The position numbers and the translations under genes were made by a program. The notes below the pieces were generated by a model. That model was given only the letters and a program-made list of their open reading frames with translations. It searched no databases and was not told the origin of the DNA. A stretch of DNA of 64,000 bases from Anadara kagoshimensis (taxonomy: Eukaryota; Mollusca; Bivalvia; Arcoida; Arcidae), in NCBI GenBank assembly GCA_021292105.1, contig CM037870.1, positions 21,607,424-21,671,423 on the forward strand. Direction: 5' to 3'. Of the stretch, positions 2,823 to 61,082 are shown piece by piece; positions within the stretch are counted from its first letter, which is position 1, and each line of letters opens with the position of its first letter.

Positions 2823-2833
2823 ATGGCGACAAG
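2823..2833 (+). CDS. Candidate first coding exon of unidentified gene
   Basis: ATG GCG ACA AG is followed at once by GTACGTAAGT, a near-perfect 5' splice site (AAG|GTACGTAAGT). The start context ACAAACATGGCG has A at -3 and G at +4. The exon encodes Met-Ala-Thr plus two bases of a split codon, so it leaves in phase 2. The candidate exons at 7530 and 61004 both enter in that phase: joining to the first makes codon 4 AGA (Arg), and skipping to the second makes AGC (Ser). An 11-base coding part is short but common for a first exon. No function is assigned. An overlapping 60-codon open frame on the minus strand (2668-2850) has no supporting signal. Confidence 0.5.
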
Positions 2834-2908
2834 GTACGTAAGTCACACAAAATAGGAAATGGAAGTTAAAAAGATCCAACTGGAAACGCTTTGAAGGGTG
2901 ACAAAAAT

Positions 2909-3045
2909 GTTATACAGGGCTTTGGCAGGTTACATGGCCCCATGTACTCCGTCAAGGATGAATGTACCCTTTGCCTGCGGCTCAGGGTAAATAAATCTTT
3001 GACGGGGTACATGGGGCTGTGTAACCTGCCAAAGCCCTGTATAAC
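2909..3045. repeat. Foldback hairpin, about 47-bp arms (MITE-like)
   Basis: The left arm (2909-2955) begins GTTATACAGGGCTTTGGCAG. The right arm (2999-3045) ends CTGCCAAAGCCCTGTATAAC, its reverse complement. Arms match over about 47 bp with few mismatches, around a 43-bp loop that itself contains a TACCCT...AGGGTA inverted pair. The right arm carries ACGGGGTACAT, close to the GCCGGGGTACAT motifs in the promoter-like segment just upstream. The structure fits a miniature inverted-repeat element or a transcribed hairpin in intron 1. An open frame across it (2891-3130) is a by-product. Confidence 0.85.
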
Positions 3046-3084
3046 TTATAATATACCAAAACCTTTCAAATCTCAACAAAATCA

Positions 3085-3525
3085 TTTTGGTTTGGTACTC
3101 AGAAAGAATTGTTCCTACAATAAAGAGTAGTTTAACATTGTACTATTTAACTGGTCTGATGGTTTTGGTTTGGTACTCAGAATAGTTCCTACAATAAAGA
3201 GTAGTTCAACATTGTATCACTAAACTGGTCTGATGGTTTTAGTTTGGTACTCAGATAGAATAGTTCCTACAATAAAGAGTAGTTCAACATTGTATCACTA
3301 AACTGGTCTGATGGTTTTAGTTTGGTACTCAGATAGAATAGTTCCTACAATAAAGAGTAGTTCAACATTGTATCACTAAACTGGTCTGATGGTTTTAGTT
3401 TGGTACTCAGATAGAATAGTTCCTACAATAAAGAGTAGTTCAACATTGTATTACTAAACTAGCCCGCTAGTTTTGGTTTGATATTCACATAGAATAGCTC
3501 CTACAAAAAAGAGTAGTTCAACTCC
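3085..3525. repeat. 78-bp tandem repeat, about 5.5 copies
   Basis: TTTGGTACTCAG recurs at about 3091, 3169, 3243, 3321 and 3399, with a diverged last copy at 3477, giving a 74-78 bp period. Units contain TTCCTACAATAAAGAGTAG and ACTGGTCTGATGGTTTT. The two middle copies are almost identical, which suggests recent homogenisation. The array begins 40 bp after the hairpin at 2909-3045. Confidence 0.95.
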
Positions 3526-4390
3526 AATTCTGCCAGTATGACATTGCAAAGTCAAGGAAATATCAAATATTTTCCAACTTCTTTGTCAAGTATGGCCAGT
3601 TATAAGTAAAAACGGAAAAAAATAACTTGAGGTACATTGGTGGCCTACACATATTACCCATAAAACACCAGATAAATAGTAAAAAAGTTGATTTCCTAGA
3701 CATACTACATAGATCATGTGACCTTACCAGACCCATACTTGTCTGTTTTATAAGTTATTAAGTTGTGAGGAGTAAAATCACTTGTAATTATATGACCTTT
3801 GACTCCCAAACATCCCCTGTGGTCACCTGGTGTCATAGATGATCTGATGGATGTCATCAGGTACAAATTAAGATTTACTCCTCCTCCATGTTGGAGGATA
3901 GATATTATGATTGATATTCACATACAATGTCAGTCCTACAGCTATAGACAACAAACCATAATCACAAATCGTTATCATATTATCAATGCAGGTATTAACA
4001 ATGGTCTGTTTTCATATTGTGTATTGTTGCCTCTTGCTTTTAGAATCTTGGCTTGGGTGTAAAGGAACCATTTATCTGATCCCCCTCACTCTCTTGTTGA
4101 GGTTTTCTTTTTAAGTATATTGCAGCACTTTTCATTATTTCTTACATGTAATGAGTTGTTTTAAAGAAAAGCAAGATGTTGTTATCTGGTAACCATTTTC
4201 TCTTATCCCACTTTTTTGGAGTATGACATTGGATAATTAATATTCTTTGCAGGATGTTTGGTTTATCTTTCAATGGAATTAGTTGCAGGTATGAATATTC
4301 AGCTTGCCATTTTCAATATTCTTTCTTTTTGGATTGAAGTGGAGTGGAGTAAAAGGGTTTAAACTTTAGCCAATGTCTTTCATTTATATT
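3526..4390. other. Intron-like sequence, no feature seen
   Basis: AT-rich sequence with several short open frames, none with splice-site, composition or similarity support. Confidence 0.5.
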
Positions 4391-4465
4391 GCGTAGGTTT
4401 AATTCTGTGATGTTGGAGGAAACTAGAGTGCCCAGATAAAACTGGCTAAAGAACTTTGATCATTA
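4391..4465 (-). mobile_element. SINE tail fragment, minus strand
   Basis: On the minus strand this reads GGGCACTCTAGTTTCCTCCA with a following AACATCACAGAA. That resembles the tail of the intact-looking SINE at 54951-55165 (ACTCCAGTTTCCTCCACTCT). A related fragment is at 17316-17392. No tRNA-like head is visible, so this is a truncated or decayed copy. Confidence 0.45.
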
Positions 4466-5694
4466 CAAAAGCATGGGTTCACATGGGATTTTAACTTATG
4501 CTAAGAGAGTCTAATGTGTGCTGTGTAAGCTTCACAGATTGTCCCCTTGTAAACAACTTCCCACATGAAGTAAAATCTGAAACAAAATCGTATTTCACCA
4601 TTAAGGTTGAGAAAATACTCAATTGAGTTTTTGGCTTTGACAAAATGTCAACTTGGTCATGCAAGAAAATATTCTTTTTATATATCATACATAACTGTGA
4701 AATTGATATGACGTAAAACAAATACATCACACATAGCTATGAAATTGTTGATTTTATGTTAACCAAATTCATCACCAAAAGCATGGAAATGGCTGAATTT
4801 GATGAACTGGTACAACCCCTAGATTTCAAGGTTGATATTTTTAGTTATGATATTTGTTTTTTTTTTTTTTTTTTTTTGTCCGTCAAAAATAATTTGCAAT
4901 ATCGGTAAGAGTCAATTTCGAAATAAGTTCAAAATTGCAGATAGGATTTGACTTTAAGAAACCTGGCAGTAAATATAAGTTCTAACTAGAACAAAGGAGA
5001 TCTAGTGTTATGCAGTCACAATGTATACTCATATTACTGAAAACCTATCTACAGAATTGTCATCCGAAGATTTCAGATTCTTCATGTTTTTGTATCAAAG
5101 AAAGATGAAAATAACACGTGCTGGTTTTCACATTACCTTGGTTACATAACTGAAATTAATTGTTGATACATTAGGTGATCGTTTTTGGTTCACATTACAA
5201 ATTTTATAACTTGTTCATATTAAACATGTAATATAACCTGCTAATATCAGTAAACATATTCCTGTTTGCAGGGATAACCCTAGTACACAGAAGCAGCTAG
5301 CATTCTGACATATGCTTTTATCATAAAAGTGTATGAAAGTTCTTTGAAAAACAATTTTTAAAATGAAGTTCCTGTAAAATCCACCGTACTTGTTCACGAG
5401 TAGGAGTGTTAAACATGCCAATCAAAAGTAATTTAACCACACTGCTGGATGTTATTTCTTCTTTATATCTGGTGACAGTCCAAAGTTGTAAGTTTGATAA
5501 TCGGTAGTCACAATATGTGATTATCTGGTCTTCTTTCATTCCTAAATTGTTCTTTTATGTTCTTGATTGTATTGACTATATCCAAGTATATGTTTTGAAG
5601 CTATTAATTGCTTTCTCCCAACAAGAATCTATAGTACATAACATGAAAATAGTGGTCATTTGTCAAAGTTTAAATTTATATGGTCCAAGTAGGG
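4466..5694. other. Intron-like AT-rich sequence with a poly-T tract
   Basis: No gene is supported. A homopolymer of about 21 T lies near 4857-4877. Overlapping short frames at 5215-5699 are AT-biased and lack splice support. Confidence 0.5.
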
Positions 5695-5830
5695 TTTAGG
5701 GTGTGCTTGGTGTCCAAGTGTTCTACAGTGATGGCTAATAGTTGACATTGACTCTTACCCAGTTCAAACAGATCCTAGTGTAAGAAGGTTTGTCATTTTA
5801 CTTTCCATTAACCTGGTAATTGTGTTTCTA
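5695..5830 (+). mobile_element. Decayed SINE copy
   Basis: The segment contains GTGTCCAAGTGTTCTACAGT (head-like), CAGTTCAAACAGATCCTAGT and GTAAGAAGGTTTGTCATTTT. The GATCCTAGTGT(N)AGAAA(N)GTTTGTC block is the body signature shared with the copies at 13818, 20269, 51211 and 54951. The tail is degraded. Confidence 0.55.
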
Positions 5831-7529
5831 TAAGTGGAAGGATTGGAAATGTGCATTGTAATGTTTCACACAGGAAAACTAGACAATGTATTAAAAATGT
5901 ATTGGAATTAATCATACCCTTATAGTAGAGAGGGGTAATGGTGTTTTTTATCCTAGCAAGATTCTTTCACTTATTTTGAAGTGGTCCTTTCTTGGATGGA
6001 TTATTCTCCTAGCTATCTAGTGAGGATGTGTCAAAGTATGATTTAAATCCGTGTTGTTGAGAGGCACTGTCATATCTAAGCTTAATTCGGAACAGAGATA
6101 TATTAGCTAGTTTATGCATTAATTGATAATTTCAGAAAAAAATTCTTTAATATTGCATTATTTTTTTAAAACTTTATCAATGTGTATACTGATGTGTTTG
6201 TGCTTGCTTGTTTTTTTCAAATAGATTTCACCTAAAACCACTAAAATCACTATCCTGAGGATTAAGGCTTTATCGTTTATCAAGATCGACTTACCTGTGA
6301 GTCGTTAACAGGATCTTATATTTTTAATTGGTTAATGACAAATATTTTGACATTCTCAGGATAATAATATTTGCAGTCAAATAAATGTAGTGATAAATTT
6401 TCAACTAATGGATATGACAATTTGAAGTTTGGGATACATTTTTTATCTGGTTGACACCTATGGACAATGTTACATACATTTTAAATAAAGATCGCATTTC
6501 CTTTGTCAGTCTATGTAAATTACGTCGTTTATTTTGAAGAATACCGCTATTTTTCTGAACATCAACACAAATCTGACATTTCATTTTGTTTGTGTACGTA
6601 AATGTAATTTTGAATTCTTTTCACAATTTTCTGTTTTATAATACTTGATAGATCAGCTCTCCTGCATGCTGATTTATATAACATTTCATAATACTTGACT
6701 ATCTTATTCCTATCATAAATTTTCATAAGAGAATTTTATTGTGATTTTTCAATTTTCAATTTTGATTATTAATCTTGATTTGTTAAAAAATAAGTATTAT
6801 CATTATATTTAAAATGTGGACAAATCTGTAATGATAATAATTGTCAAAATGTTCATTGTGATCAGGGCATTAAATAGATGATACTGTATTGACGGCTAGT
6901 TTATAATTTGTAACTAGCACCAGTGAATTATTATCGTAGTAAAATAGAATAAGAAAATTTGAAGTGTTAGGTAGATTAAATACATTGATATGATTCAATG
7001 ATTTTGATATATCTTTCAGGCGTTACCTTACCCCTAAGTGGATCGAGTGGTAACATATGTCTTAAAACTTCTCCCAAATACTATAACTAACTATAATAGC
7101 TAAAATACATGTTAACAACAACAAGTGTATATACATGTATATGTATTTTATACATGTGCACACATTAATACAGTTATATATATATATATTATACATATAT
7201 ATGTTTTAGTAGGTAACAGTACTGTGGTTGGTAGAATGTCTAGAGAACCTGCCCACTACTGCTAACTGTCTCTTAGAGAAAACTCACAGACTTACAATGT
7301 AATATAAGTCACTTCACGTGGTCTTATAAGACTCAGATGATGATTAAACTAGCGTAACATGGCCTGGTCGATTCAGGACATTCTAAATATAAATAATATT
7401 ACGATATAATAATTAATACAAGCAGTAGGATCGGGCAAGGTGGATCATTAGTACTTAATTGTTTAAACATTTTTGGAAGTTTTTTTTAAAAAAAAAAATC
7501 TTTATATCTCGGCTTACAAATCAAAACAG
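5831..7529. other. Intron-like AT-rich sequence
   Basis: No gene is supported. Low-complexity TA/TG tracts occur near 7120-7205. The far end carries oligo-T/oligo-A runs (7480-7500) that precede the candidate acceptor at 7529. Confidence 0.5.
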
Positions 7530-7610
7530 AACCCTGGACACTTTAACAAAGATGTATAATGATACGTTTGGTGGCTGGTCCGCTGCGTCGCAGGCTCCAA
7601 GATGGTTAAG
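7530..7610 (+). CDS. Candidate second coding exon (81-nt cassette)
   Basis: The segment is bounded by AAAACAG| and |GTAAGAGT and is richer in GC and CpG than its surroundings. Read in phase 2 (one base completing the codon left by exon 1) it is open for 26 codons, starting TLDTLTKMYNDTFGGW and ending SAASQAPRWL, then leaves two bases (AG). The other upstream frame meets TAA after nine codons. Both boundaries are phase 2 and the length is a multiple of three, so skipping it would keep the frame. The acceptor is the weak point: its pyrimidine tract (TCTTTATATCTCGGCTTAC) is separated from AG by an A-rich stretch. Met12, with A at -3, could be an internal start. The protein family is not recognised. 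Confidence 0.5.
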
Positions 7611-9532
7611 GTAAGAGTTTTTTTAATTAAAAAAAAAATTAAATAAAAAAAATTTGACACAAAAAAAGCAGGAAATACAAAAATATATAAGAGAACAAAA
7701 TTTAATTTGTTTTATTGTTTTTGCATCATGAAGTAGGTAAAAAAAAAAACAATTTAAGAAGAACCTTTAAGATGTAGGAAACATGATCCCGCTTAACTTT
7801 GATTGACAGTTAAGAAGTAGAAGAAATAGTTTTCTGCTTGAATTGTACCAAAGATGAAAATAATGGATCTACTCATTTGTTTTAGCTTTTCAGTCCCCCT
7901 TTTTTGTGAAAACCCATCTTTATAACACTTTATTGCTATATTAGAATGGTTAAGTTTTCTGATTTATTTAGTTATTTCTTTGAAGTTTTAACCATGTTTT
8001 GTTTTATATTTCCATTTATTTATTTATTTATTTTAAAGTAAAACAACAGATAATTTTAGTCTTTTGTACACAGATTGTAAAGATTATTATCTTTGAAAAA
8101 AATCAAATAAGTATACAAGATATGTAAGCTAGTATTTTTGATAGTTTTATTCAAGTTTAATGCCAAGCTATCAGGAGATAATTTGAAAAAAAATTTGTTT
8201 TCAAAAACCTTTTATTTTCAAAAATTCAGTTGAGTAATTTCCCTATAAAAATCTTTAAATTGGTATGAATTAAACATTACATTTTAATTCAGATTAATCC
8301 TATTTTTTTTATCACTGGTATATTTTTAGCCATCATGATTTTGTAATATTGCTGCAAAAAGTTGAAATTTTGTATGAGAATGAGTCTTGATAATGTAACA
8401 GATGTGGAAACAAAGTCTCCTCAAATCATTAAAAATATCCTATATCACAAAGACTTCTGCATTTTAATTTAACTTTAGGGTATTTGATTAAAATTTGTAA
8501 GTCAATTTGTTTTATGTGGAAATTTGACACCCTTTTATATTATTATATTATTTTTGATTTGATGAAAAAATATCTCTTATTCAATGTTTTAATAAATTCT
8601 TTTTGTGTTTTAATTTTTTAAAACATTTTTTATATATATTGTGTTCAAAGTAGATGTACATATAGCACTGTTTAAGAGTTTAGTGCATTTTGTCTTTTTT
8701 GTGTCAACTGCAATACACAATTTAATTGTATTCTGCAGATATCAGTATATGCCTTCAACTTTGAATTACCGGTATTTCAATATATACTTTGATTTCAAAG
8801 AAAGATGTTTCAAAGAAAATACAGATATGTCATTTTTGATGATGATAAATAAGACCAATTCTTAAAGATACCAGGACAATACTGAATCTATACAGTGCCT
8901 TTAAAATATTAAATTTACTTTTTCCCTTCATAATTTTTACTTAACTAATTATTCTGGAAACATTTATTTTCCCTGATATTAACGCGTTAGAAATGAGAGA
9001 TAATATTTATTTCATTGTCTAATTATATAGGAGTTACATAAGATGAAATCTACCTTCAACATTTGAAATTTATATGTGAAATGTACATGCATCTACTGTA
9101 TCTATATTAATTTTGTTTGTTCTAGTTAGTCATATTTCAAAAAATTTTAATAAATTTTAACTTTGTGAGATTCTCTTACAAGAAATGAATTTCATCGTTT
9201 ATGTCATAGTCATATACATGAATATAGAGTCATGGAAAAATGACACATCTATTTGGTGTGTATGTGTGTGTACATGTGTAATATATTTAGTCAAAAGCTG
9301 TACAATTTTAAACTACAAAAATGCCCCCTTTTATTTGAACCATTATAAACACAGTAAAACACTTTGATTTTGTGGCTATAATTCTAACATAGCATTTTCA
9401 CAATATCTAATTATATATAACATGATGCATGTAATAATTCTGCTATTTGCCCTTAATGAGGTATGATTTTCTGTTAAGCATGAGATCACAAATTTTGCCC
9501 AAATATTTCTTGCTTGCAAAATAAGCAAGTTT
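7611..9532. other. Intron-like AT-rich sequence
   Basis: Start of the putative 53-kb intron 2. Homopolymer runs of A occur at 7620-7650 and 7740-7750. Short open frames (8641-8865, 9185-9367) have AT-driven composition and no splice support. Confidence 0.5.
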
Positions 9533-9533
9533 T

Positions 9534-9589
<56 letters not shown>

Positions 9590-9592
9590 TAA

Positions 9593-9639
<47 letters not shown>

Positions 9640-9643
9640 ATGA
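9533..9643. repeat. Compound tetranucleotide microsatellite (GTAA)n(ATAA)n
   Basis: About 13 GTAA units are followed directly by about 14 ATAA units. One G-to-A change per unit separates the two blocks, so one block probably arose from the other. The translated Leu-Thr-Tyr/Ile-Tyr runs on the minus strand are artefacts. Confidence 0.98.
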
Positions 9644-12133
9644 AATTAAATAAAAGATAATTTACAGTACATGTATTGCATGCAATAAATTTCTGTACAA
9701 AAAAAGAAAAAACGATTGACATGGTACAAGAGTGTATCCTTTTTTTTATCTGGGCATAACAAAAAACTCATTTAACCAGTTAATTCATTTAATTGGAAAA
9801 GATAGCTAAAATCATGCTGATAGGATGCAAAACGATTTACAACATCTTTTCACAATTATTCTGTATCTTTTAAATTCTCTGATAAGTTCCTCCCTTATAC
9901 TCTTTCTTCCACTCTTATTTTCTTAACATACATGTACATGTAAAATTTCATATCATTGCCTCCTTAAAAATATTGTCATTTTACTTTTGGTTTTTAAATT
10001 TTAGAAGATTATAGGCATTTTCAATGAAAACTCCCAAACAATAACAATTTGGAAAAAACAGTTACAATTTTGGTACAATATTCATAATACTGGTAACTTT
10101 TTATTTTTAATCCGCTAATTTTAAGTGTATAAGATATCATTTAAAATCAAATTAAATGTTAATAAGCATTAAGTAATATACATGTACCAACCATATATAA
10201 ACAGGAAAGACACAACAAATTTACCAAGATTTTCCTTAACATAGAAAAAGTGAATTTGAAATTGGAATAATTCTTTTGCTTTCATAATATACTGAAATAT
10301 AAGATGTTATTTTGAAGGTCGCTTTATTCTAATCTGTTGATCAAGTTAAAACATATGTAAGAGTGATGATGCAAAGTAAAACATCATATAAACAATTAGA
10401 TCTTAAATTTACCAGTAAGACAAAGTGAACTATAAGTAAATACCACATTATACAGGACACATGATTATGTCTAATTATGTGTTATTATAGTGTACAAACA
10501 CAGCTTCAACGGCTGCCATTCTGACTTATTTTTTTTTACCAACATGGCCATCATTTCTGATATCAAAAAATATTTTTTTTCTTAAAAATGTAAATTCCCA
10601 AATTCATACCTTTAAATTTACTACATGTACTACAACATCAATTTTTCTAGGAAAAAATAAGAGGCGGGATTAAACAATCATCATATTTGCAATTTCTTGG
10701 AACCCAACATGAAATTGACTTGCCATTTCTCCAGAACACATTTTAATTCCAATGTTTGCTTTATTTTCATGTTATGATAATACAATGTATGTGCATTGTT
10801 TTATTTCCGTTGTCTAGGATTTAGACAGTAATACTTACTTATTTTGTCATATGACCATATGCCATTTCGGGTTTTATTTTCCTGTTAGTATTATTTCTAT
10901 TTTTAGTTTTTCAAAAATGTTTACATTTATTTTCAATCATAATAAATAAAAATAGAAAAATGAAGTTAATATTAAATTAATATTAAGTTATCTATTAGAT
11001 CCAGAAATAGTTTTACCCTAAATATACAACACTAAATGATTTCATTGTAGTGTGATACTCTAAAATGTTTGTCCTGGACAATTGCTAAGGAAACCATAAT
11101 ATTGCAGACTAGTCTTTCTGAAATATATGATCAACAATTTGATGGGAGGGGGACATCAAGCTATCCATTTCTATAGTTGTTGAAAATAAAAGTTCCATGG
11201 AGATTGCCAATTGCCAAAATCTGTAATAGAACTAGTAAGATGGCTTCAGATCATGTTTATTTCTGTTTAGTTTTGGTCTCTTTATAATTATTTTTCTATT
11301 GTTTTTCCAAGCATGAAACCTATCAAATTCTTTCTAAATATTTCAGGCAAACTTGGTACTACCAAATGTATTGACTCTGTCAACTTACGTTTTGACAATC
11401 ATGTTGTCAAATTTCATATTTTTTCTAAAATATTTGAAATTACCGGTAAAAATAGCTAAAAAGGCTTAATTTGATTATGAAAATAATATTATTTTTAAGA
11501 AATTATTCTTATTTAAATTTACAAAGGACATGCAATTATCTTAAATACATTTTCAATATTGTTTATTTCATCAAAATTATTAGAATATTAAAATTCAAAA
11601 GTATTTTTTACCTCACTCATTATTTTATACTGGTATAGCTGTAATGTTTTTATTTTTATTGTCAGCCTTATCAATCCTTTTAAGCCGTTTTTGCTGTATC
11701 ATTAATATTGGGAAGCATCCTTTTGTGCCAATTACATATTTTTAGAGGTATAATTTCTGCCACTAATTTAAATTTCTGGTGTTTTAATTCCACCAGAATC
11801 TGGAGGTCTTTTGCGCCTGTTTTCCTGTACAGGTAATTCCTGTTATAAATGTTAATAGGCAAGTGTTTCAAATATTTATGTTCTCTGTTCAAAATAACTT
11901 GCAAAACAAAAAGAAAATAAGCAAGTAAAGTCACATGATAGAGATACATGTAAATTCATAAAAATTACTCGAATGAAATATAAATCGGTTTTCATTTTGA
12001 AAGAAATCTTACAGCATGAATCTTTGAATTAAGATATTGGAATATACTGTATGTTGTTTACCCTATTTCAGATAAAGGAACAATGCAAATATTTCACGGA
12101 TTTTAAATGGCACAGTTAAAAAATCAGTTATCA
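9644..12133. other. Intron-like AT-rich sequence, no clear feature
   Basis: No gene is supported over about 2.5 kb. On the minus strand ATGGCAGCCGTTGAAGC near 10524 has a fair start context but runs into a stop without a credible donor. An 89-codon minus frame (11680-11949) is unsupported. Confidence 0.45.
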
Positions 12134-12327
12134 TTTACTTACATGAGCCAAGTCGTTGCTAAAAATTTAAATTTTAGTCTAATCCATAAATTATAACTCA
12201 TTTAGTAAAAACATTTACCATTGTAAACACCCAGCCAAGTTATATTTTGTCGCATAAAAGGATAAATAAAGTAAGGATGGAGCCAAAAACAAGGGTTTTT
12301 AGTAACAACTTGGCTCATGTAAGTAAA
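12134..12327. mobile_element. MITE-like element with about 32-bp terminal inverted repeats
   Basis: The left end (12134-12166) reads TTTACTTACATGAGCCAAGT and continues CGTTGCTAAAAA. The right end (12296-12327) is TTTTTAGTAACAACTTGGCT followed by CATGTAAGTAAA, its reverse complement with about two mismatches. The 194-bp length, AT-rich interior and absence of an open frame fit a non-autonomous DNA transposon. No clean target-site duplication can be read. Confidence 0.7.
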
Positions 12328-13110
12328 AGAATTATGAAATCTATAAAATATTCATGTTCTTGCTTTCTCTAAAAAAAACCTAAACAAACAGTAACAGGAA
12401 AACCAGTATTCATAATAGAAGAACTTCGCCAAGCATTTGTACCATATTGACGCAAAAGTACTAAGGGTTTTTACAAAGTAGATGGCGGAAATGATATACT
12501 GACGCAAATAGGTTGTGTCGGAAAAGGACGCTAAAATGGTGCAAACGGATTTCATCTTGAGTATTACACTGTAAAATCTATAAAGTAATCACTAATTTTC
12601 TTAAATTAATTTTATATCAATAATTGAATCTAAATTCACATCTTGACTTATAAAATATATAAGAATCCCGGTTCAAGTTAAAAAATTAAAAACCTGGATC
12701 ACCTGAAAAAATGCATGTGAAGCTTATATTTGTGTACTCATTTAAGAGACCTACAACTAAATACAAGATGTTTTTCTAACACAAATTATTATTCTCCCAC
12801 ATTCATAACATGTTGATGTCAGTATTTTGACTGAGGGAGACCAGTTATTTGAGATGCAACTTCCTTTTTCAGACCCCATCTGGCAGGCAGCGGGGTAGCT
12901 CAACTTGGAAGATATCATTTGCATTTTATTTCTGTTAAAACCACACATAACTGGTGTTTTAATTCCGGCTACATAACTCTTACATAGTTAAGACAAATTC
13001 CAAAGTTAATTTTTGCCGATTTCGAAATTAACAATAAAATCACATTATTGACAAGAGAACTTTTTCTAAAATGGTAGCTAATGTAATTAAATGAGTTTTT
13101 CTATTATAGT
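12328..13110. other. Intron-like sequence with a CpG-bearing patch
   Basis: The 12440-12560 patch has more CpG than its flanks and contains two GACGCAAA words (near 12447 and 12502) plus ATGGCGG near 12482. A 67-codon minus frame (12352-12555) spans it, starting at an ATG, but its residues give no recognisable domain. It may be a dispersed-repeat fragment associated with the adjacent MITE. Confidence 0.35.
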
Positions 13111-13232
13111 TTTTTGATATGTGTGTGATTTTTATAAGTGACTGTAACATTTTTTGATATGTGGGTGATTTTTATAAGTGACTGTAACATTTTTTGATAT
13201 GTGGGTGATTTTTATAAGTGACTGTAACATTT
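13111..13232. repeat. 40-bp tandem repeat, 3 copies
   Basis: TTTTTGATATG recurs at 13111, 13151 and 13191, each followed by GGTGATTTTTATAAGTGACT and GTAACAT. The copies are almost identical, differing by one TGTG/TGGG change in the first unit. Confidence 0.96.
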
Positions 13233-13817
13233 CTTTGACAGAGTATTAAAATTTATTAAATATAAATTAAACAAATAATATAAAGTGGGACCAGTGTGAA
13301 ATGAACACTTAATAAACCATAAAACATGTCTAAACTAAATCAGTATTTAGGCCAATATCATTGATATTGCTGTTAAACTGCAATACCTGAACACATCTGT
13401 CTTTATTTTCCCATAAGTTTTGACAGGTTTCACTGTATACAAAATTATGTCATTTTTCTTAATTTTGAAACTGTAACAAAATTATAAAAATAGGCTTGAT
13501 ATTTGGTGAACACCTTATAACTACACATTATTTCTACTACATTTTTATGTTTGCTTAAGAAACTTTGATTTAATCAAGTTTATTAGTTTCAACCATACAG
13601 GTTTGAATAAGTATAAAATTAAAAACAATTTTTTATTTAGTGTTTTCTATTATTCATAAAAAAATTTCAATTTTCATAAATGTTTGAGAAAAGGTTTTAT
13701 TATTTAAAAAAAAAAATTAAAAGTTATAGAATAAGTTTTTTGTTTTTTTGTTTTTCATAATTATTTAGCTAAGGGGTTTCAAATTTAAATTCATATTATG
13801 TGATAAAAACTTATTTT
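13233..13817. other. Intron-like AT-rich sequence
   Basis: No feature is seen beyond poly-A and poly-T runs near 13700-13760. Confidence 0.5.
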
Positions 13818-13992
13818 TGGTCTAGCTTGCAGATCACAGTGCCTAGCACTGCCTTGATTTTGAATCCAACCTTGGCAGATCCTAGTGTGAGAAAGTTTAT
13901 CTGTCCACTTGCCTACAGTTAGTGGTTTTCTCTTTTGGCACACCAGTTTCCTTCACCGTCCTTGAACAGATGGCCTCAATATAAGAGAAAAA
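13818..13992 (+). mobile_element. tRNA-derived SINE copy (head truncated)
   Basis: TGGTCTAGCTTGCAGATCACA corresponds to the head-body junction of the copy at 20269. TTTTGAATCCAAC (B-box-like), CAGATCCTAGTGTGAGAAAG, a GTGGTTTTCTC block and ACACCAGTTTCCTTCACCGT follow in the same order as the copy at 54951-55165. The 5' A-box part is shortened. Confidence 0.65.
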
Positions 13993-14044
13993 ATGTCTTC
14001 ATTTTTATCTGCATGAGGAAAACTTTACATGCTGTATAGTGTCT

Positions 14045-14285
14045 GTATAAGTCTGCTTCCACTGTCTGAACAGATCTTTTATGAATGTCTTATGGAACTA
14101 TCTGTACAAGTCCTCTCTTGCTGGCTGAACACGCCGTTTATGACTGGCTGAACTTGCCTTTTTGACTCTCTGAGCTAGTCTTCTAAAGGAGTTAATTGAC
14201 TGGCTAAACAGGGTTTCTTTGATTGGTGGAACTTGTATTTTTTGTGGAACTAGTATTTCATTGACTCTCTGACTCTGAATGCCGG
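14045..14285. repeat. Degenerate tandem repeat (CTGGCTGAAC-type)
   Basis: Loosely repeated words occur about every 28-40 bp: CTGTCTGAACAG, CTGGCTGAACACG, CTGGCTGAACTTG, CTCTCTGAGCTAG, CTGGCTAAACAGG. They are separated by T-rich spacers. This looks like an old, eroded minisatellite starting just after the SINE copy. Confidence 0.5.
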
Positions 14286-18229: not shown

Positions 18230-18309
18230 ATGTTGACAGTGGGAGCTTGTGGCACATTTGCCTCAACTCCTTTGGATGACATACCTAATGCATACTTATG
18301 TAGTTGTCT

Positions 18310-47055: not shown

Positions 47056-47085
47056 GGTAAATATTCCTTAAAATCATATTATACA

Positions 47086-50090: not shown

Positions 50091-51210
50091 GAAATATTTG
50101 TTTTATTATAATTGACTTAAGTTCACCAGAATGGATTACAATATTACTTTCTCATAAAAATCAACTGAAGCAAAGGATTTCAGATTTATAATATTCTGTC
50201 TGTTGGTACAACTCAAGTAAATATGAAACAAAGCTTATAAACAGACTAAAAATCCCAGCATCAATGATTAAAATTTTGTTGAGACGGTTTTCTTGACAGA
50301 ACAAACTAATTCACCTCTGCAGGTTGGTCAGCCATGTTTATAAAAATCCTGCCATATGTGGGAGTTCCAACTGAATTAATTAAATCTTATTTGAATCCAT
50401 TCATTGTAACAATAGTAATTTCTGTCAAGTTAGTTAATTTAGTTAGATATATATTTTAGTTCTGTCTGTCTCGTAAAAGTTTCTGGGTAAATATTTTCCA
50501 TAAGATCTACTATTATCAAATTGGGTGTCAGGTGAGCTACAAGGTCTTCTGACATATAAAAATTAATCCTTTCCTTTTGAGCCATGGGTTGATGCTAACA
50601 TATACAATAATGTCTATATTTCATTTTATTGGTTTGAACAATCCTTCACTTATGAATTTGATTGTGTTGATTTGGCCTCAATTTGTTTAAGTATATGTAT
50701 CCATTTATTGGTTTGGCCTTCTACTGTAGTATGTGTTAATTGACATTGCTCAATGCTTCCTTGTCTATCATTCAGGCTGTGTTTTGGCAATATATCATTG
50801 CCCTCCCTGACCCAATGTTTTCTGGCATATGTTGTAGAGGTTTATAGCCTGGTTCTGTCTTACCTCATCACAGCTGGGCAAAGTTTTAATCTGCCGTATG
50901 TAATTATTACTAATGTTTAGCAAATCGGTGTCATCTATGTTCTTTATATTTCCAAAATTTGCCAAAATAAATGTTGCAATTTTTAAAACTTCATTCTTTT
51001 TTGGGGGGTTTTATTGAAATTAATCATGCAAAGTTTATTTACACTGGATGGAAGTAAAAGAAATTATTTTCAAGGGATTTCTGAATCAATCATTAATAAT
51101 CTATATGATAAATGGTCTATCTACCAAATACATTTGAGTGCATACTTCAAACTTAATTTGTTACTTCCATCTCAAAAGGTTGTTTGTTTCATTGTCTATC
51201 ACCATCTATG
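50091..51210. other. Intron-like sequence
   Basis: No supported gene. The 50720-50880 part is somewhat less AT-rich (ATTGCCCTCCCTGACCCAAT) without recognisable features. Confidence 0.45.
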
Positions 51211-51372
51211 TGGTGTTTGTGGTTCTGTAGTAGCCTTACTAATCACAATATACCTAGGTCCCACTCAAACAGATCCTACATGTGATAAAGTTTGTCAATT
51301 CAATTTCTGAAGGCAAGTGGTTGTCTCTGACACTATGGTTTTCTCTACCATCCCTTGACTTACTGCCCCAAT
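51211..51372 (+). mobile_element. Decayed SINE copy
   Basis: AGGTCCCACTCAAACAGATC, CTACATGTGATAAAGTTTGT, CAAGTGGTTGTCTCTGACAC and GTTTTCTCTACCATCCCTTG keep the order of the SINE body and tail seen at 54951. Head signals are weak. A 98-codon frame (51014-51310) ends inside it. Confidence 0.5.
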
Positions 51373-52017
51373 ATATTAGTAAAAGAATTGGGACTAGTGC
51401 ATAAATTTCAATTACTCCACCCACTCCTGTCCATTTCTGTATACACTGTTTCTTTTTGGTTTAAAAATTCTTTCAATAAGTTTAAAGTAAAATTAAAGTG
51501 AAATATGAACATTTCTGGTTGTTTGGTCCCAATTGATTGTTCTGGCCTGTTGTAATTCAAAGTCAAGGTCATATCTCAAAGGTCAATGGTTTAAGGTCAC
51601 ACAGTATATATATGAAATACCTTTTACATATAGATTATGGTTTCTTTTTCTTCCTTATAAAAATACAGTATATAAGACAAAACTGTATATCCTAAATGAA
51701 TTATTTCAACACTTGAACCCAGAATTAGTTGATAATAAAATTGTGATAATTCACAGTGACACCAATATCAAATTCTGAACATGAGCCAAATTTTAAATTT
51801 GAATATATATAAGTGGTTCTGAATGTTGTCAGACTTATCTACACAGTATGCATTAATTAAATTGATAATGAAGAAATTCATTATCACATAATATTAGGTA
51901 ACTGATAGGCCAACTGGCTTTTTAAAACAAAATTAAATTTAAAAAATATAGAGATGCTATTATAGTGAAATTTTAAAACTGTCTAGATTGCAAATCCTCA
52001 GGTTTTACTTATGTAAT
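51373..52017. other. Intron-like AT-rich sequence
   Basis: No supported feature. Confidence 0.5.
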
Positions 52018-52775
52018 CAGGAGTTGTTTGTCAAACTGGTTAAGACGGCAGACTATCAAGGAGTTGTTTGTCAAACTGGTTAAGACGGCAGACTAATAAG
52101 GAGTTGTTTGTCAAACTGGTTAAGACGGCAGACTAACAGGGAGTTGTTTTAAGACGGCAGACTAATAAGGAGTTGTTTGTCAAACTCAGGTTAAGACGGC
52201 AGACTACTAAGGAGTTGTGTGTCAAACTGGTTAAGACGGGAGACTAATAAGGAGTTGATTGTCAAACTGGTTAAGACGGCAGACTAACAGGGAGTTGTTT
52301 GTCAAAATGGTTTAGACGGCAGACTAATAAGGAGTTGTTTGTCAAACTGGTTAAGACGGCAGACTAATAGGGAGTTGTTTTAAGACGGCAGACTAATAAG
52401 GAGTTGTTTGTCAAACTCAGGTTAAGACGGCAGACTAATAAGGAATTGTTTGTCAAACTGGTTAAGACGGCAGACTAATAAGGAGTTGTTTGTCAAACTG
52501 GTTAAGACAGCAGACTAATAGGGAGTTGTTTTAAGACGGCAGACTAATAAGGAGTTGTTTGTCAAACTCAGGTTAAGACGGCAGACTAATAAGGAATTGT
52601 TTGTCAAACTGGTTAAGACGGCAGACTAATAAGGAGTTGTTTGTCAAACTGGTTAAGACGGCAGACTGATAAGGAGTTGTTTGTCAAACTGGTTAAGATG
52701 GGAGACTAATATGGAGTTGTGTGTCAAACTGGTTAAGACGGCAGACTTAAAAGGAGTTGTTTGTCAAAATGGTTT
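52018..52775. repeat. 40-bp tRNA-like minisatellite, about 19 copies
   Basis: The unit is GGAGTTGTTTGTCAAACTGG followed by TTAAGACGGCAGACTAATAA. Variants include a shortened form GGAGTTGTTTTAAGACGGCA (29 bp) and a form with CAAACTCAGGTTAAG (42 bp). Short and long forms recur together near 52140, 52370 and 52520, defining higher-order blocks. CTGGTTAAGACGGCAGACTA resembles the D-arm and anticodon-arm of a Leu/Ser-type tRNA, so the unit probably derives from a SINE head. Confidence 0.95.
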
Positions 52776-54950
52776 AGAGAGGTAGTTCTACATTAGAAAC
52801 ATTGAGGAACACAAAATTAATGTAAATCCAAAAGTAGAATTACCTTTTGTGTTATTTCATCAAAAGATTTTTTTAAACGTGTTTGTTGGTCAACAATCCT
52901 GATTCAATGTGCAGTACACATCATAGAACACCATCTTGTGTGTAAAGTACACAACTCTCATCTGTATTTCCCTAAGTTAGAAGTTCATCATTATGCTATA
53001 CCCAATTAATGAGAAATTTCATCAATCCGCAAAATGAAATAAAAATTATATGATTTTTTGTAATCCTAGTTGTTTATCAGGAAAAATAGATCTTGGAAAC
53101 TAATAAATTGTGGTCACTAATTAACAAAACAAAATACCGGTAGTTTAAAATGCATTATTTTGAGTTACATAACAAATACATTTTAATATCTGGTAATTTC
53201 ATTGGCCACAGAATTTTCCAGCCCTAACCTTGAATCACCCTTCTGAATATGCACAATTTTAAAAACAAACATACATTTAGAATGAAATGAAAAATAATCT
53301 TAAGAGTGTAGGTTTCTAAGTGTTATTCAAATGTTTATGGTCTCTAGATCTATTGGGGATTTTTGTCTTAAATTAAGCATTTGCCTACACTTTGCCAAGT
53401 ACGTAATCATTGAAGTAAAGCAGAATAAAAATTGTAAGATATGCAGTAACACAAGAGGATGTCCTTATTGCACACTTGTCAACTTATTGAAGTATTTTGT
53501 GAACCTTTGGCAGTTGACGCCAATCTGAACTAATACTAGTTGTACCTTAATGTTCAGCTGTGTCCATCTTATATATTTATAAAAAAACCACACAATGGAT
53601 GGCACCATTTTTTGCCATCAGAACTGCCTATTGTCTTGATTTAACAAATGGTCTATGATACATTTTTTTATCAGCAACAATGTGTATTGTCTGATTTAAC
53701 AGGTGGTTGATGACACAGTTTTTATAGTTCTTCTGTGTATTGTCCACTGTAATAAATGGTCAGAAGTAAAACACATCTACCAATTAGTTATAATATACAT
53801 ATATTTATGATATATATGTAGAAGTATTGTCATATAAATATTGTTCTTTTTATAACAGAATTCTACTGTCAACATTTTTTAATCACTGATTATACCAGTT
53901 TATTGCTTGATATTTCTGCAACATGTCAATTTCTTTTGTGCAATGCATGTGTAAGAAATGGTTAGTATTTTTGTTTTAACTTGTATAATGAATTTTGTAA
54001 TATTCAGGGAAAAATGTATCATTTTTTTATATTTTGTGAATACTATTACATTACTATTTTAGTTGGTTAGATTATTATTATTATTGGTTTTTTTTTTGAA
54101 AACATTGCTTTTGTTGAAATTTCATATTTTTAATATACAAGTGAATCTGAGAGTTTTTCATAAAATATTTTTTTTGTTAGATATGTTAGTTTATCTGGTC
54201 TTATATTTAATTTTTATCTTTTTAGGATTTAATAATGGTATATAATTTTAGATAATAAACAATAATCTAATTTTTTTATGTTTGTAAAAAAAAACAGAAA
54301 ATACAATTATTAATTTTTTTTTCTTGAAATATTAAGATTTCATTACATATTGAAGAGATTTGTAGATATTTTACAGTTTGAAGTGAGAAATAATAGTTAC
54401 CTTACCAGTGTGTATGTGTGTCTATATTTAGTTTTCATTTTCGTTTTATTTAATTTATTTCACAATTTGTTTAGGAAATATTTTACGGGACCTTAATTTG
54501 TTATGCTGATATTGATACATATATGTATAAAAATAACTGGTTAAAATTGATCAGGAGTTAGAAGACAAATAGAATCAAATAATCAAAAATCTCATTTTAA
54601 ATTTGTTTTAAATTTGTCTTGATTTTAGAATGTCTGTGGCCAGCCAGGATAATTTCCATAAATATACTAAAATTTAAAAAAATGTAAATTATTTAAAAAC
54701 AATATAGTTCACATAGTACTATGTTCACAAATGAAATGTAAAGATTTTATTTTAAAAATTTGAGAAGTTTGTTTTATGATAATTCAGATAGAAGTGGAAG
54801 TCAGTTGACTGCTACTTGTAAGTGACAATCTTGTCAGCTTTCATTTTATACTGGCACAAGTTTTCTGTCAGATTTTTTACACTTATGAATTTTAAGATAG
54901 TTTGTAAATAGATCAGAAAACACTAATGTCTTTACTTTCATCTACAACCT
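52776..54950. other. Intron-like AT-rich sequence
   Basis: No gene is supported over about 2.2 kb. Near 54629, TTGATTTTAG|AATGTCTGTGG has an acceptor-like edge and a short open frame (MSVASQDNFHKYTKI, then stop), but there is no donor or polyadenylation context. Confidence 0.45.
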
Positions 54951-55165
54951 GTGGCCTCAGTGGCTAAGTGGTCTAACAACAATCCTCAGCTTGCTGATTA
55001 CACACGGTCTCTCACTGCCTAGCTAGGTTTGAATAAACTCCAGGTAGATCCTAATGTGAGAAAATTTGCTAGTTCATTTGCAGAAGAGGTGGGTTTTCTC
55101 TAGATACTCCAGTTTCCTCCACTCTACCAGAACTGACTGCCAGGCCTAAAGTCATTACTGCTTTG
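54951..55165 (+). mobile_element. tRNA-derived SINE, best-preserved copy
   Basis: The head has an A-box (TGGCTAAGTGG, 54961-54971) and a B-box-like GGTTTGAATAA at 55026-55036, with Leu/Ser-like spacing. The body has CAGGTAGATCCTAATGTGAG, and the tail has GGTGGGTTTTCTCTAGATAC, TCCAGTTTCCTCCACTCTAC and CAGAACTGACTGCCAGGCC. The same body and tail order is seen at 5695, 13818, 20269-23697 and 51211. Pol III promotion is expected from the box A/box B layout. The 65-nt spacing and mismatches argue against a functional tRNA gene. Confidence 0.75.
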
Positions 55166-55975
55166 ACAGAAAAAATTCAGTGTAACATTTTGCCGCTATT
55201 TATAAAGTCATCCTTTTATAATTTATCTTGCTATATATGTAGATTTTATTTAAGTTTTAACTTCTACTGCATTATATTATATTATATATACCGGTATATA
55301 TATATTGTTTTGCTTTTGAAATTCTCAAATATGTTATTTATTTTAAAATATTTGAAGGCTATATAGCAAAGAATTTATATCCAATGAAGAGAGAATCGGA
55401 AAATATTTATCCTGTAATATAAAGTAAATTATCATTTTAAATTAATTTTATTTATCATGTTTTTAAAGTATACTATAAATTATAAATACTATTGTTTGGT
55501 TAAAGCATTTTTTATAATTGATGAAAACATATTTTAAAATCTCTGGCATATGTTACTTTGTGCAACTGTTACAAATTCATACAATAAATAATTTTAAAAA
55601 AACCCAATTGTTTGTCTGTGTGTAAAACTGATATTGTCGATGCATTAATCAAAGTGCGGGCTAATTAAATCTAGATAGCAGTAAGTGCTCAATGTAATGC
55701 ATCATCTTTATATTGATTTCTTTATCTCTTAAAATTTGTTTTTTCTTAATTTGAAAAAAACTTTTAATTCTTAAATCAGGTTACACAACACAACACAGTA
55801 TTTGCTTGATTATCTGCAGAAGAATAAATAAGTAGCTGTTCTTTCAAAATGAAATGATTTTATTTTAAATTTGAAAATTTTAGCTTTTTGAACAAAGATT
55901 GTGTATGAACATGGTCAAAGAATTTATTTACCCCTATTACTCTCAGATTTAATTTTTAAATGTTTTAAATGGCCA

Positions 55976-56044
<69 letters not shown>

Positions 56045-56390
56045 ATACATATACTGGTACATACATACATACATTTACCGATATTGAACATAACTTAGAA
56101 TTTGATATTTTGGATATTCATTTAGTTGAAATAGGGCCATTTTATGATGCAATATACTTGCACACACATTTTCATAAAAAATCTAGCTAAATCTGAATAT
56201 CACTTTCCTAATATTGTTAAACTTGTTTTTAAAAAAATCATGAAATATTTTAAAGACATTTTAGAGTGAAAGAAATAAAATAATATTTACTGCAGTATGT
56301 TGTACAAGTGACTATGTTATACATCTCAGTTAGGCATTGCAGTCATTCTTAAACCTTCCATGAAACAACTCAAATAAGTTCAATCAGTAT
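55166..56390. other. Intron-like sequence with (TA)n microsatellites
   Basis: TA runs at about 55270-55305 and a long interrupted (TA)n at 55981-56047, followed by (ACAT)n near 56063-56075. Ile/Tyr frames across them are artefacts. Confidence 0.85.
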
Positions 56391-56520
56391 TTCTATATAA
56401 GGACCACCTGTCTATAAAGACAAGTGTTTCAAGGTTTTCAAGCAAGATCTCTATATAAAGACCACAAGTCAATATTTCTCTGTGCCCCATGGGTTATCTC
56501 TATATACAGGTTTTACTTTA
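56391..56520. repeat. Dispersed repeat, fuller copy related to 49-bp and 29-bp arrays
   Basis: TTCTATATAAGGACCACCTG, TCTATAAAGACAAGTGTTTC, CTCTATATAAAGACCACAAG and CTCTATATACAGGTTTTACT occur in succession. The copy joins the GACCACCTGTCTATAAA motif of the 1-1624 array with the ATATACAGGTTTTA core of the 39960 array. It looks like an ancestral-type unit. Confidence 0.55.
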
Positions 56521-58580
56521 ATAACTTTATATAATTTAGCCAAAATATAAATTCACGCCTTAGCCTTTATTTTCTTGGTAAAATACTCTTTATTTATAAG
56601 ACACCTAGTAGAAATAAATTATTGTTGGAAAAGTACAGTTTACCATTTTTTGACCATGCAGTCTTTATAATCAGAGTCTACCAGCAATATTTAAAAAAAT
56701 ATTAACATGAATATTTAGATAATTCACCACAGTATTTTGAGGTCCCAAAATCTATTTTTCTATATTTTTGCTATGAGTCTCTCTCTATTTTATCAACAAA
56801 TTCCTTCATAATGCCAAAATCTGACTACTAAAATAATGACAAAAGTATAGTATAAATGAAATTAAATGAAATAAAATAATGTGAATACAGGAAAATCATT
56901 GTAATGTTCCTTGGTTATTCAATATTTTGCATGAAAACTAATAATTGTTGATAATGGCCAGTTTTTCCACATGCTCATATTCTATTTTTCTATACATAAA
57001 TCCCCACTTTAAAACACTTCTTGTACTGTAAAATACTGAAGAATGTACCTTTAAAGGGTTGATGATATAACATGTTTTACTGTTGTAGGATTCAGATTCT
57101 GTATAAACATTCTTCTCATCAGGATTTTTATTTTTAACTGAGATGACAAAATAAAAATAAATTTTTATGACAATTTAAGGTCATATATAAAATTATACTA
57201 GGTCTGTAAAATGTGAAATATAAAGAAAATTGTGGAAATTAAATTTTGAGTTAATTCTGACTAATTTTGAAAATAACAGTAGCAGGAGTTATCTTGTTGT
57301 CTATCTAGAAGTCGAGAGGAGACGTTTTTAGAACAGCTGGTTTTGGGTCGGAGTTATGCAATTTAATGGTGTTTGCTTGTGTTTTGGCGGAGATGTTTTT
57401 TGTCAGAACAGATATGCTGACAGCTATATAGAAGCTGTGTTCATTAAAACGGAAAATTTTAAGATAATGCGTACCATGACCTAACCATCAACAGGGAGAG
57501 TAAAACAGAGAGTTGATAATCAAACCTGGATAAGATATAGCTTAACAGTTATTTAATGATATTTAAAATTCATACAGAGTTAGAGATCTATTTCAAGCTT
57601 GCACATTAACCTTTTAATGAATCAAAATGCATTTGAAGGAGTTTGTGGATAAAATATAAGCTTTTTATTGCATTACTTTGTCGGAGGGAAAATTTGAGGT
57701 TTTCAGTATATATATATGTATATGTTTTATGTTGGGGAAATAAGGAAAATCTCTTTATCTGTAATAGAGAAATAAAAGGTTTTTATGTAATAATATAAAA
57801 TGAACATTTACGAGGATACACTTAGAAATTATGTCAGAAAAATATATTTTATTCAAATAAAAGTTGTCATAAATTAACTACAGTCTTGGTTATGCATCAT
57901 AAAAGACTGATATGTAAAAATTTATGTAAGCAAAAGATTCTAGATTACCCTAGAAACTACAAGTTTATATATATATATAAAACCATACAATTTTTATGTG
58001 AATTAAACGTTATAAAAATGAATATATTTCTAGATACTTCATAAGCAAACCTCCATGAATTTGATGGCAGACATATCTTGATGAGTGAGGGTTTTCACAG
58101 AAATTTGAGATTGTTATCTGTAACAGATTTATCCCCTTAATCCTCAGTTTTTGAGGGGAATCATTGTCCAAGTTCTGTTTTGTAGGACTGATACAATCAA
58201 AAACTATTCTTTTCTCAGTATTTTGTGCATATGTGTGTATCTTGTGTAGTTGTTTCAGAGAGGTGGTCACATAACAAAGGAGGAAACTATAGAGGGATCA
58301 ACCTACACATGCTATGACCAATTCGACCATGTTATCATCCTTTGAAATATAATTGTGTACTTACAGCTTAAAATATGAAAATACATGTATTTCACTTGAA
58401 ATGATGTTTTTTTCCCCACTCAATATTCTTTCATGCATATTGTTCTAGAATAGTAAAGAAATCAAGGGTGCCTTCTGCAACAATGACCTATAAACTTATA
58501 GTACAATGAGGTATGGTACACCAAACTTTTACAGCTCTGTAATGTGAACAAGAGACTAAAAACACCACTGAAAAGCTATA
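56521..58580. other. Intron-like sequence with one possibly conserved patch
   Basis: Most is AT-rich without features. The 57290-57440 part (GAAGTCGAGAGGAGACG, GCTGGTTTTGGGTCGGAGTT, TTTTGGCGGAGATG) has more GC and CpG than its flanks and no repeat structure. It could be a conserved non-coding element. TA runs lie near 57707-57726 and 57965-57980. Confidence 0.4.
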
Positions 58581-58735
58581 TCTGGTCCAGAGTGAGGTTT
58601 GAACCCACAACACATAACATAGAAAGCCAGCGACATTACTGCTTGGTCATGTTGTCTCACATCAACTGAATTAACATAGATTTTTGGGTTTTTTATGTTC
58701 GCCAGTTTTCTCCTAGAACTGACCACTTTGATATT
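58581..58735 (-). mobile_element. tRNA-like SINE head (minus) joined to an inverted tail
   Basis: On the minus strand, CATGACCAAGCAGTAATGTC, GCTGGCTTTCTATG and GTTGTGGGTTCAAACCTCAC give a box A (ACCAAGCAGT) and an excellent box B (GGGTTCAAACC) with tRNA-like spacing. Immediately to the right, plus-strand TTCGCCAGTTTTCTCCTAGA ACTGACCAC is a SINE tail in the opposite orientation. This is a rearranged or nested copy. Confidence 0.55.
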
Positions 58736-59633
58736 TAAGAGAAAGAGAAAATATACTCTACTCCTAAAAAACAGGAGTCTGAAGCAGGTATATGACTTAA
58801 GCTTTCATCTTGGTTTCATTTAGTTTTCAGTGTTTAAAAATTTTGAATTTATTTGTTTAATAAAACCAGGAAGCGTTTCATAATTTCATGATAAACGGGC
58901 CATTTTATTTTATGATTGTTAAAAGTTTTAGGTGTGAAATTAAACTTCAAAAGTAAAAATATGTTTCTATTTCAAATGAATGATTTTATGGAATTTTCTT
59001 TAAATGAAATAATTCTGATCAGGTATACACTTAATGCATATAAACCATTAGGAAATATGTTTGCCTTTCATATAAAAGGCACACACTTAATTAGAATTCT
59101 ATACATATGATTTTAATGTTTAATAATAGCTATATGTGGTGATTCTTTATAGATCTATTTGAATTACAAATGTGTTATGATATGGTATTATAATGTCTGC
59201 AGGATTTAGATGCATGTACATACAGTTTTGTGATGATATAATAGGTATATCAAGATGATGAAGTAGGTATTAAAAAACAGATTTTTATCTCATACTTCAT
59301 AATGTAAATATGCAAATCCATTAAAATTTCAATTTTTAATTCTTATTGCATGCATTCTGTAATTTTAAATATTTTAATTAGAGATGTTTTGTAATTTTGA
59401 TAATTTTGATTAAATTCATTTTTTCATATTTTCAGTGTATTTGATAAATTTAATATTTTGAGATTAAAAGTAAAAATCAATTCAGTCAATTTGAACTTGT
59501 ACAACTAGCTTGACAATAATAATAATAGCTTGGTTAGAATTTAAATTTAGGAATGTTGAGAGTCATGGGTTGTATCACGGATTTAATTGTGATCCCATGT
59601 GGTTATTTATTTACCCATACTAAGTATCTGCTA
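58736..59633. other. Intron-like AT-rich sequence
   Basis: No supported feature. Confidence 0.5.
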
Positions 59634-59942
59634 TTATGCTTCTGTCAATAGGAAGCTACAGTTATGTAGTATCCTTACAACTTTTGCTACTTCATCCCAT
59701 ACCTTCTCATCCCCTTTAACACTTTTTGAAAGTCCATGTTTTCTTCTACCATCCCTGTACAGATGAAAACTAATCTTACAAGGGTGCAGACCAGAACACA
59801 CCATCTTGTTAAATTCACTCTCCATGTGCAGGTTTCTTCTCCATGTCACAATCTCTATGTTGTCTTTTCTTCTGTCCTCATATTTTGATAAAGACTTTAC
59901 AATAGGGTCATGCTGTGACAAATATCCTTGTTTTGTTAACAA
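59634..59942 (-). pseudogene. Possible coding relic or exon, minus strand
   Basis: The minus strand is open for about 100 codons with a polar, protein-like composition: SLSKYEDRRKDNIEIVTWRR, then NLHMESEFNKMVCSGLHPCK, then ISFHLYRDGRRKHGLSKSVK, then GDEKVWDEVAKVVRILHNCS, ending SFLLTEA and two stops. Local GC is above that of the flanks. There is no upstream ATG in a good context; the first Met lies about 40 residues in. TTTGTCACAG|CATGACC near 59908 could be a 3' splice site, making this a terminal exon. Alternatively it is a fragment of a transposon or retroposed gene. No family is recognised. Confidence 0.35.
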
Positions 59943-60445
59943 TTCTCAGCATTTATTTACTGATATAAGTGGATATTTCTAACTCCACATATAACTTATT
60001 CCAACCTTGGATTTTTGTTTGTATAATTAAATTGAAACAAGGTAACAATACACTGCAAATCTGTTGTGTGTATATATGCACTTTATTTTTTCTATATTTC
60101 TTTAAACAGTTCCAAATCTCAAATTTTATTGTCTTTTATAAAGTTACAAAATATTACAGATCCAACTAAAAAGTTTATAGGTCAAAATGAAAAGTTGTTG
60201 TTCTGGGGTAGGTAGACTTAGACTCTGAATATGGATACCTGGATACTTATAGTGAACTTATAAATGATCAGAGTACAACAAATGAACAGTTTATAATGAA
60301 ATAGATCACTGCAACATCACAAAGGTTTAAAGCTATGAAATGTCACAAAATCACAATAAAATAAATTTTTTCAGTGATTTTTTTACTTTAAAATATACAG
60401 TGCAAAGTTTGTAATTTTGCTACATACATGGTATGTGAGACTAAT
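59943..60445. other. Intron-like AT-rich sequence
   Basis: No supported feature. Confidence 0.5.
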
Positions 60446-60795
60446 AGAATGTTACACCAGTAACAGCGTAAGACTGAGATATCTCAAATGAGGATGAATA
60501 TTTTCCTGTACATAATGAGCTTTAGCGAGTTCTGGACATTGAAAATATTTACCCGCGTTTAAGATATCTCTGAAGGAAAAAAACAATGATTATGACATCA
60601 TCAATTTAGTGTCCGTAAGTGATCATGTCTTATTCAGAATGCTCCTATTTTTTATAGAATCGGATTAAAAAGTCAGAGAAATCCTATTAATGCTGAAGAT
60701 TGTTCATGTGATCTGTCTCAGCCAGGGAGACAGGGAAATCTAGCACCGGTAAAATAGCTGGATTCCCTTGTCACAGTATGTAGACACCTGGGGTG
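60446..60795. mobile_element. Second copy of the composite foldback element (reverse orientation)
   Basis: AGAATGTTACACCAGTAACA, GAGATATCTCAAATGAGGAT, GCTTTAGCGAGTTCTGGACA, then CAATGATTATGACATCATCA, then GTCTCAGCCAGGGAGACAGG and ATTCCCTTGTCACA. These are the blocks of 31605-32095 in the opposite order and orientation. The palindrome's far arm is incomplete. It lies only about 200 bp upstream of the exon at 61004. Confidence 0.6.
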
Positions 60796-61003
60796 TGTGA
60801 GCTAATGCAGGTTCTTTCATTTTGTGATCTGTACCATTGGTTTTCAAAAAAAATATTCATGTGTCAAAAAAAACCCCTGTGTTTTATGTGAATCAAAAAA
60901 GTTGTGAAATTGAATTTAAATACAATACCAGTTTTTGCTATTTTAAAAATATTTTATCATTTTAATTTTAGTGTTTTATTTTATTTTATTTTTTTTATTA
61001 CAG

Positions 61004-61082
61004 CCCTGCTGACTGCTATGCTGGATTGAACATGAGCGACAGACAACACCGTGATGACTTCAGTCTTTGGACAGGTGTTCAG
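61004..61082 (+). CDS. Candidate third coding exon of unidentified gene
   Basis: A long T-rich tract and TTATTACAG| precede the exon, and GTTCAG|GTATTC follows. The 79 nt are open in only one frame: one base (C) completes a split codon, then 26 codons begin PADCYAGLNMSDRQHR and end DDFSLWTGVQ, leaving in phase 0. The entry phase matches the exit phase of both upstream candidates (2823-2833 and 7530-7610), making codon 31 AGC (Ser) after exon 2. GC, CpG and codon content contrast with the AT-rich flanks. An internal ATG (residue 41 of the model) could start a shorter isoform. No domain is identifiable in 57 residues. The gene must continue past the right edge, since no stop follows before the donor. 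Confidence 0.65.

Follow-up and report, generated by a model that had tools for sequence, protein, structure and literature searches.

Does the start of a protein-coding gene lie scattered in three tiny exons over some 58 kb of DNA in the bivalve Anadara kagoshimensis? The window of 64,000 nucleotides that raises this question (contig C14, CM037870.1, positions 21607424-21671423, plus strand) had been assigned such a gene start by an initial annotation, which joined the segments 2823-2833, 7530-7610 and 61004-61082, referred to below by window position as pieces 1, 2 and 3. Reading the letters confirmed that three stretches with AG/GT borders stand at these positions, that their phases fit and that the join gives 57 residues without a stop. 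We analysed the window together with the next 100 kb downstream, 164 kb in all, and used the organism's own genome (1.115 Gb, 36 contigs) as a search target. The three-exon model is rejected at its first exon, because that exon is embedded in a dispersed repeat of high copy number. A two-exon gene start consisting of 7552-7610 and 61004-61082 is plausible, unproven and ordinary. The explanation that we tentatively prefer, while granting it slightly less than an even chance, is that pieces 2 and 3 could be the first two coding exons of a plus-strand protein gene and that piece 1 is a decayed repeat copy rather than an exon.

Dispersed repeat at the proposed first exon

The segment proposed as exon 1 (plus strand, 2823-2833, ATGGCGACAAG|gtacgt) had been taken for a gene-specific start, and it is not unique. 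A search of the genome with positions 2680-3060 (381 bases, which mark the extent of the query and not the true ends of the element) gave 3213 first-look candidates, the best 40 of which were scored, yielding 88 rows. Among the matches listed, one is the query's own locus; 40 others span 371 or more of the 381 bases at 92-94% identity on at least 15 contigs, and three further rows run from repeat position 46 to 371-375 at 85-92%. In the other 44 rows a shorter stretch matches the palindrome, always in the orientation opposite to that of the long match, and one of these 44 is again the query against itself. Since only the best 40 of 3213 first-look candidates were scored, the copy number may run into the thousands. 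The palindrome is formed by 2909-2975 and 2979-3045, an inverted repeat with 67-nt arms that are 87% complementary and separated by 3 nt.

The donor site that made piece 1 attractive is AAG|GTACGT, which scores 9.7 bits, and among the copies aligned it occurs in that of the window alone; all five sibling copies read AAC|GTACGC at this site, and all five keep the ATG. This and all other splice scores given here come from animal-average matrices, which may not match this genome. Because the donor is absent from all five siblings, it probably arose by private mutation in a decayed repeat copy. Several CpG sites in the window copy also differ from the five other copies, as expected of an old copy. 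The statement that piece 1 is richer in guanine and cytosine (GC) than its flanks does not hold up, as the GC content downstream of it (0.45) is about equal to that of the leading stretch 2690-2833 (0.444). Piece 1 lies within a CpG-rich dispersed repeat, and therefore the GC and CpG richness around it belongs to the repeat. Repeat membership together with the donor missing from its siblings rules out 2823-2833 as a gene-specific start exon. A start-like ATG and a chance-made splice donor within a decayed repeat copy would be enough to mimic a gene start here.

Mobile elements can supply first exons. On this general ground, and given the strong private donor and the fitting phases, the repeat copy might have been recruited as a first exon with all three pieces spliced together. 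We consider this very improbable in view of the high copy number of the repeat, the lack of the donor in the sibling copies, the poor acceptor of piece 2 and the frequency with which comparable start-plus-donor sites appear by chance (a mean of 1.87 per resampled window). No better, to our mind, is the chance that the decayed copy, with its donor gained by private substitutions, serves as an alternative first exon that adds 'MAT' in frame to a gene whose remaining early exons lie beyond minisatellite-bearing DNA at distances of 5 and 58 kb. Piece 1 chiefly teaches a lesson of method: a start context, a strong donor and agreeing phases built a convincing exon from a dispersed repeat, and a single copy-number search sufficed to unmask it.

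Pieces 2 and 3 as candidate coding exons

The part of the three-exon proposal that stands concerns pieces 2 and 3. No second copy of either was found, and both differ from their surroundings in GC content, are open in one frame and are mutually in phase. Piece 2 contains a probable first coding exon on the plus strand at 7552-7610, with an ATG at 7552, an open frame of 19 codons plus 2 nt, exit phase 2 and the donor AAG|GTAAGA of 10.3 bits; a 5′ untranslated part may begin at about 7530. As an internal exon, 7530-7610 does not have the acceptor with pyrimidine tract that would be expected: the site at 7529 scores -3.35 bits, on a matrix that may not fit this species, and no pyrimidine tract stands beside the AG just before 7530. 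Because this acceptor is very poor we read 7552-7610 as a first exon; a poor acceptor with a strong donor is the pattern of a first exon, for which an acceptor is irrelevant, and it points to a first rather than an internal exon. Weak support comes from a TTTATA at 7501, 51 bases 5′ of the ATG. Translation from 7552 joined to 61004-61082 gives 46 residues. The alternative start at ATG 7602 was discarded, as its join to 61004 meets a stop after five codons.

Piece 3 (plus strand, entry phase 2, exit phase 0) is a probable coding exon and has what an internal coding exon should have: a classical acceptor of 8.6 bits, a moderate donor of 5.1 bits, an open frame and coding-like composition. An alternative donor is present at 61074. 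In genome searches that passed over very common words, 7200-7900 had no second copy, its sole match being the window itself, and 60950-61150 matched itself and one 35-base stretch at its T-rich left part.

The initial annotation had described its pieces as richer in GC and CpG than their flanks. For GC this is borne out at piece 2 (0.481 versus 0.295 and 0.220 in the 200-bp flanks) and at piece 3 (0.506 versus 0.215 and 0.285). The CpG part of the description fares unevenly, with observed/expected ratios of 0.87 versus 1.17 and 0.44 for piece 2 and 0.40 (2 CpG) versus 0 and 0.25 for piece 3. Coding potential was scored with a fourth-order phased model trained on the longest open reading frames (ORFs) of 23 kinase-profile loci (11,574 codons), one of which (L043) begins in repeat-like sequence; each coding 81-mer used for comparison was scored by a model trained without the gene it came from. 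In frame, piece 2 scores +0.4 bits, a value reached by 7.1% of 3269 open noncoding 81-mers and not exceeded by 25% of held-out coding 81-mers, and piece 3 scores +3.6 bits, for which the corresponding figures are 2.4% and 42%. The two other frames score -20 and -22 bits for piece 2 and -10 and -11 bits for piece 3, and all of them hold stops. Both pieces score within the coding range.

For both strands of the 164 kb we also listed every AG..GT segment 60-160 bases long that is open in some frame, is mostly unmasked and has a donor of at least 5 bits and an acceptor of at least -3.4 bits, the latter cut-off having been chosen to admit piece 2. The 669 segments were ranked by GC contrast, the difference between the GC of a segment and that of whichever 100-bp flank is richer. 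Piece 3 leads (0.25) and piece 2 comes next (0.21), followed by piece 3 shortened to end at 61074 and by 2918-2986, which is inside the dispersed repeat. The two top-ranked segments are on the same strand (plus), are mutually in phase and are open solely in the fitting frame (frame 2). The rank is not independent evidence, because the initial annotation had itself named richness as support.

With no second copy found, distinct GC content, a single open frame and agreeing phases, a gene start reaching across a 53-kb intron stays plausible. It would work as follows. Transcription would begin near 7500-7530 and translation at 7552; splicing would remove a 53.4-kb intron, joining 7610 to 61004 and giving the 46-residue beginning; the gene would then continue past 61082 through a phase 0 (codon-boundary) junction. 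What the sequence shows is the repeat nature of piece 1 and, for pieces 2 and 3, a distinct composition, fitting phases and no second copy; the status of pieces 2 and 3 as exons, their join and the leading place of piece 2 are inferred. It could instead be that 61004-61082 is a real exon whose true preceding exon is elsewhere, with 7530-7610 belonging to another transcript or being untranscribed. The contrast between the classical acceptor of piece 3 and the poor one of piece 2 speaks for this, as does the fact that any phase-2 donor would suit piece 3, but the phases of the two pieces agree and both are top GC-contrast segments of the same strand, and we regard this arrangement as unlikely.

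Phase agreement and chance

The initial annotation leaned on phase agreement, and this argument is weak because in-phase chains are common by chance. We counted chains of a start piece, a second and a third piece in phase, with the cut-offs for both chains and segments set from the observed pieces. At the observed signal strengths (acceptor -3.4, no coding filter) there are two chains on the plus strand of the window and none on the minus strand, and the same strict cut-offs give 1, 0, 0 and 0 in four other, partly overlapping, stretch-strands. Loose splice cut-offs admit 37,831 in-phase three-piece chains on the plus strand of the window, 10,427 on its minus strand and between 580 and 5,303 in each of the four other stretch-strands. 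At least one chain was present in 13 of 30 Markov-resampled windows on signals alone and in 1 of 30 with the coding filter; the acceptor cut-off of -3.35 used there evidently excluded piece 2 itself by rounding, and the real window then held four other chains on signals alone and none with the coding filter.

Several observations weigh against a gene start formed by pieces 2 and 3. Exon-like strings with such signals do arise by chance, and the phase fit of the two pieces has a one-in-three chance. By the sum of splice and coding scores, piece 3 is only seventh among non-overlapping plus-strand segments of the 164 kb and is also outscored by seven minus-strand segments, while piece 2 fell below the acceptor cut-off of this ranking. 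Since it is outscored by segments on both strands, the signal of piece 3 is not exceptional by itself. Nor did the 57-residue model find a relative: its one Pfam hit was Zn_Ribbon_Topo (E 0.02, 15.1 bits, below the cut-off of 25), PDB gave no match up to E 10, and no paralogue was found in the organism's own genome up to E 10, where the model matched solely at its two own places (residues 3-31 and 29-57). The following 100 kb yielded no convincing next exon, the best phase-0 candidates being short or weakly coding, and a Pfam search at E up to 1 with ten of the better ORFs (four in the window and six at downstream loci) gave no match. Past 61083 there are 539 plus-strand ORFs mostly outside tandem arrays, from which four of the ten Pfam-searched ORFs were drawn.

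A rival explanation is that neither piece is an exon, and that the AT-rich DNA here, be it intergenic or intronic, merely contains two GC-rich islands that are open by chance. The chance occurrence of signals of this strength, the lack of a useful homologue in Pfam, PDB and the own genome, the occurrence of 27 GC-rich islands in the 164 kb and the lack of an identified downstream exon in the following 100 kb all fit this explanation. It has to contend with the fact that pieces 2 and 3 are among the sharpest of these islands, have their borders at AG and GT, are in phase and score within the coding range. We hold it to be rather unlikely, though it is the most serious competitor of the two-exon gene start.

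The peptide of 61004-61082 bears what we take to be a faint likeness to tektin beginnings; Tektin (PF03148) was dropped as a candidate, as the model has no match to the profile and none of the profile's 45 genome matches is on C14. Rfam at gathering scores and a tRNA search of the window returned nothing.

The proposed intron and other features of the region

If 7610 is joined to 61004, a join that we infer from phase only, the putative intron is 7611-61003 on the plus strand (53,393 bases). It had been described as largely minisatellites, a description too strong for the 27.6% that Tandem Repeats Finder (TRF) assigns to tandem repeats; in the 100 kb after the window the share is 62.6%. Minisatellites are nonetheless very dense across the region, with arrays of about 100 bp or more at 34 loci, built of many different units, making up 79.5 kb of the 164 kb, the longest array having 44-bp units over 21.4 kb.

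A 103-codon open frame on the minus strand at 59637-59945 holds the best-scoring minus exon-like segment (59679-59754, 28.4); it has no Pfam match and its PDB hits are weak (best E 0.019). Elsewhere in the genome, a cluster of protein-kinase-domain ORFs at C2:37381613-37464622 comprises 19 rows at the equal E-value 1.3e-70, many about 1.85 kb apart, plus broken copies. On contigs C4, C5, C6, C8, C14 and C19 many family matches have a partner on the same contig, at a distance of about 0.03 to 2 Mb, that scores the same or nearly so; such pairs may reflect recent duplications or haplotype duplicates that were retained.

Comparison with known systems

Non-autonomous dispersed repeats with palindromes are described in bivalves, for example the Helentron-type Cg_HINE (PMC7492417). 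Compared with that account, the 2680-3060 repeat is alike in high copy number and palindrome only, and we place it in no family. A candidate Helentron-type non-autonomous element, by comparison with the same source, stands just past piece 3 at about 61741-63542. It combines a microsatellite left flank (the CGTGCGTCGTCCGT array at 61780-61817), central tandem repeats (145-bp units at 62327-63253) and a palindromic right flank (the perfect palindrome AGGCCCATGGGCCT at 63524-63537, near the right end).

For pieces 2 and 3 the closest parallel is an animal protein gene of the ordinary sort whose first intron is long. Unlike such a gene, the locus has no useful homologue in Pfam, PDB or its own genome, and no downstream exon was identified in the following 100 kb. 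Should pieces 2 and 3 indeed be joined, this would be an ordinary but hard-to-annotate gene start, its two tiny exons separated by 53 kb of repeat-bearing DNA, and it would share with other animal genes the start codon, the strong donor, the long repeat-bearing intron and a second coding exon with a classical acceptor.

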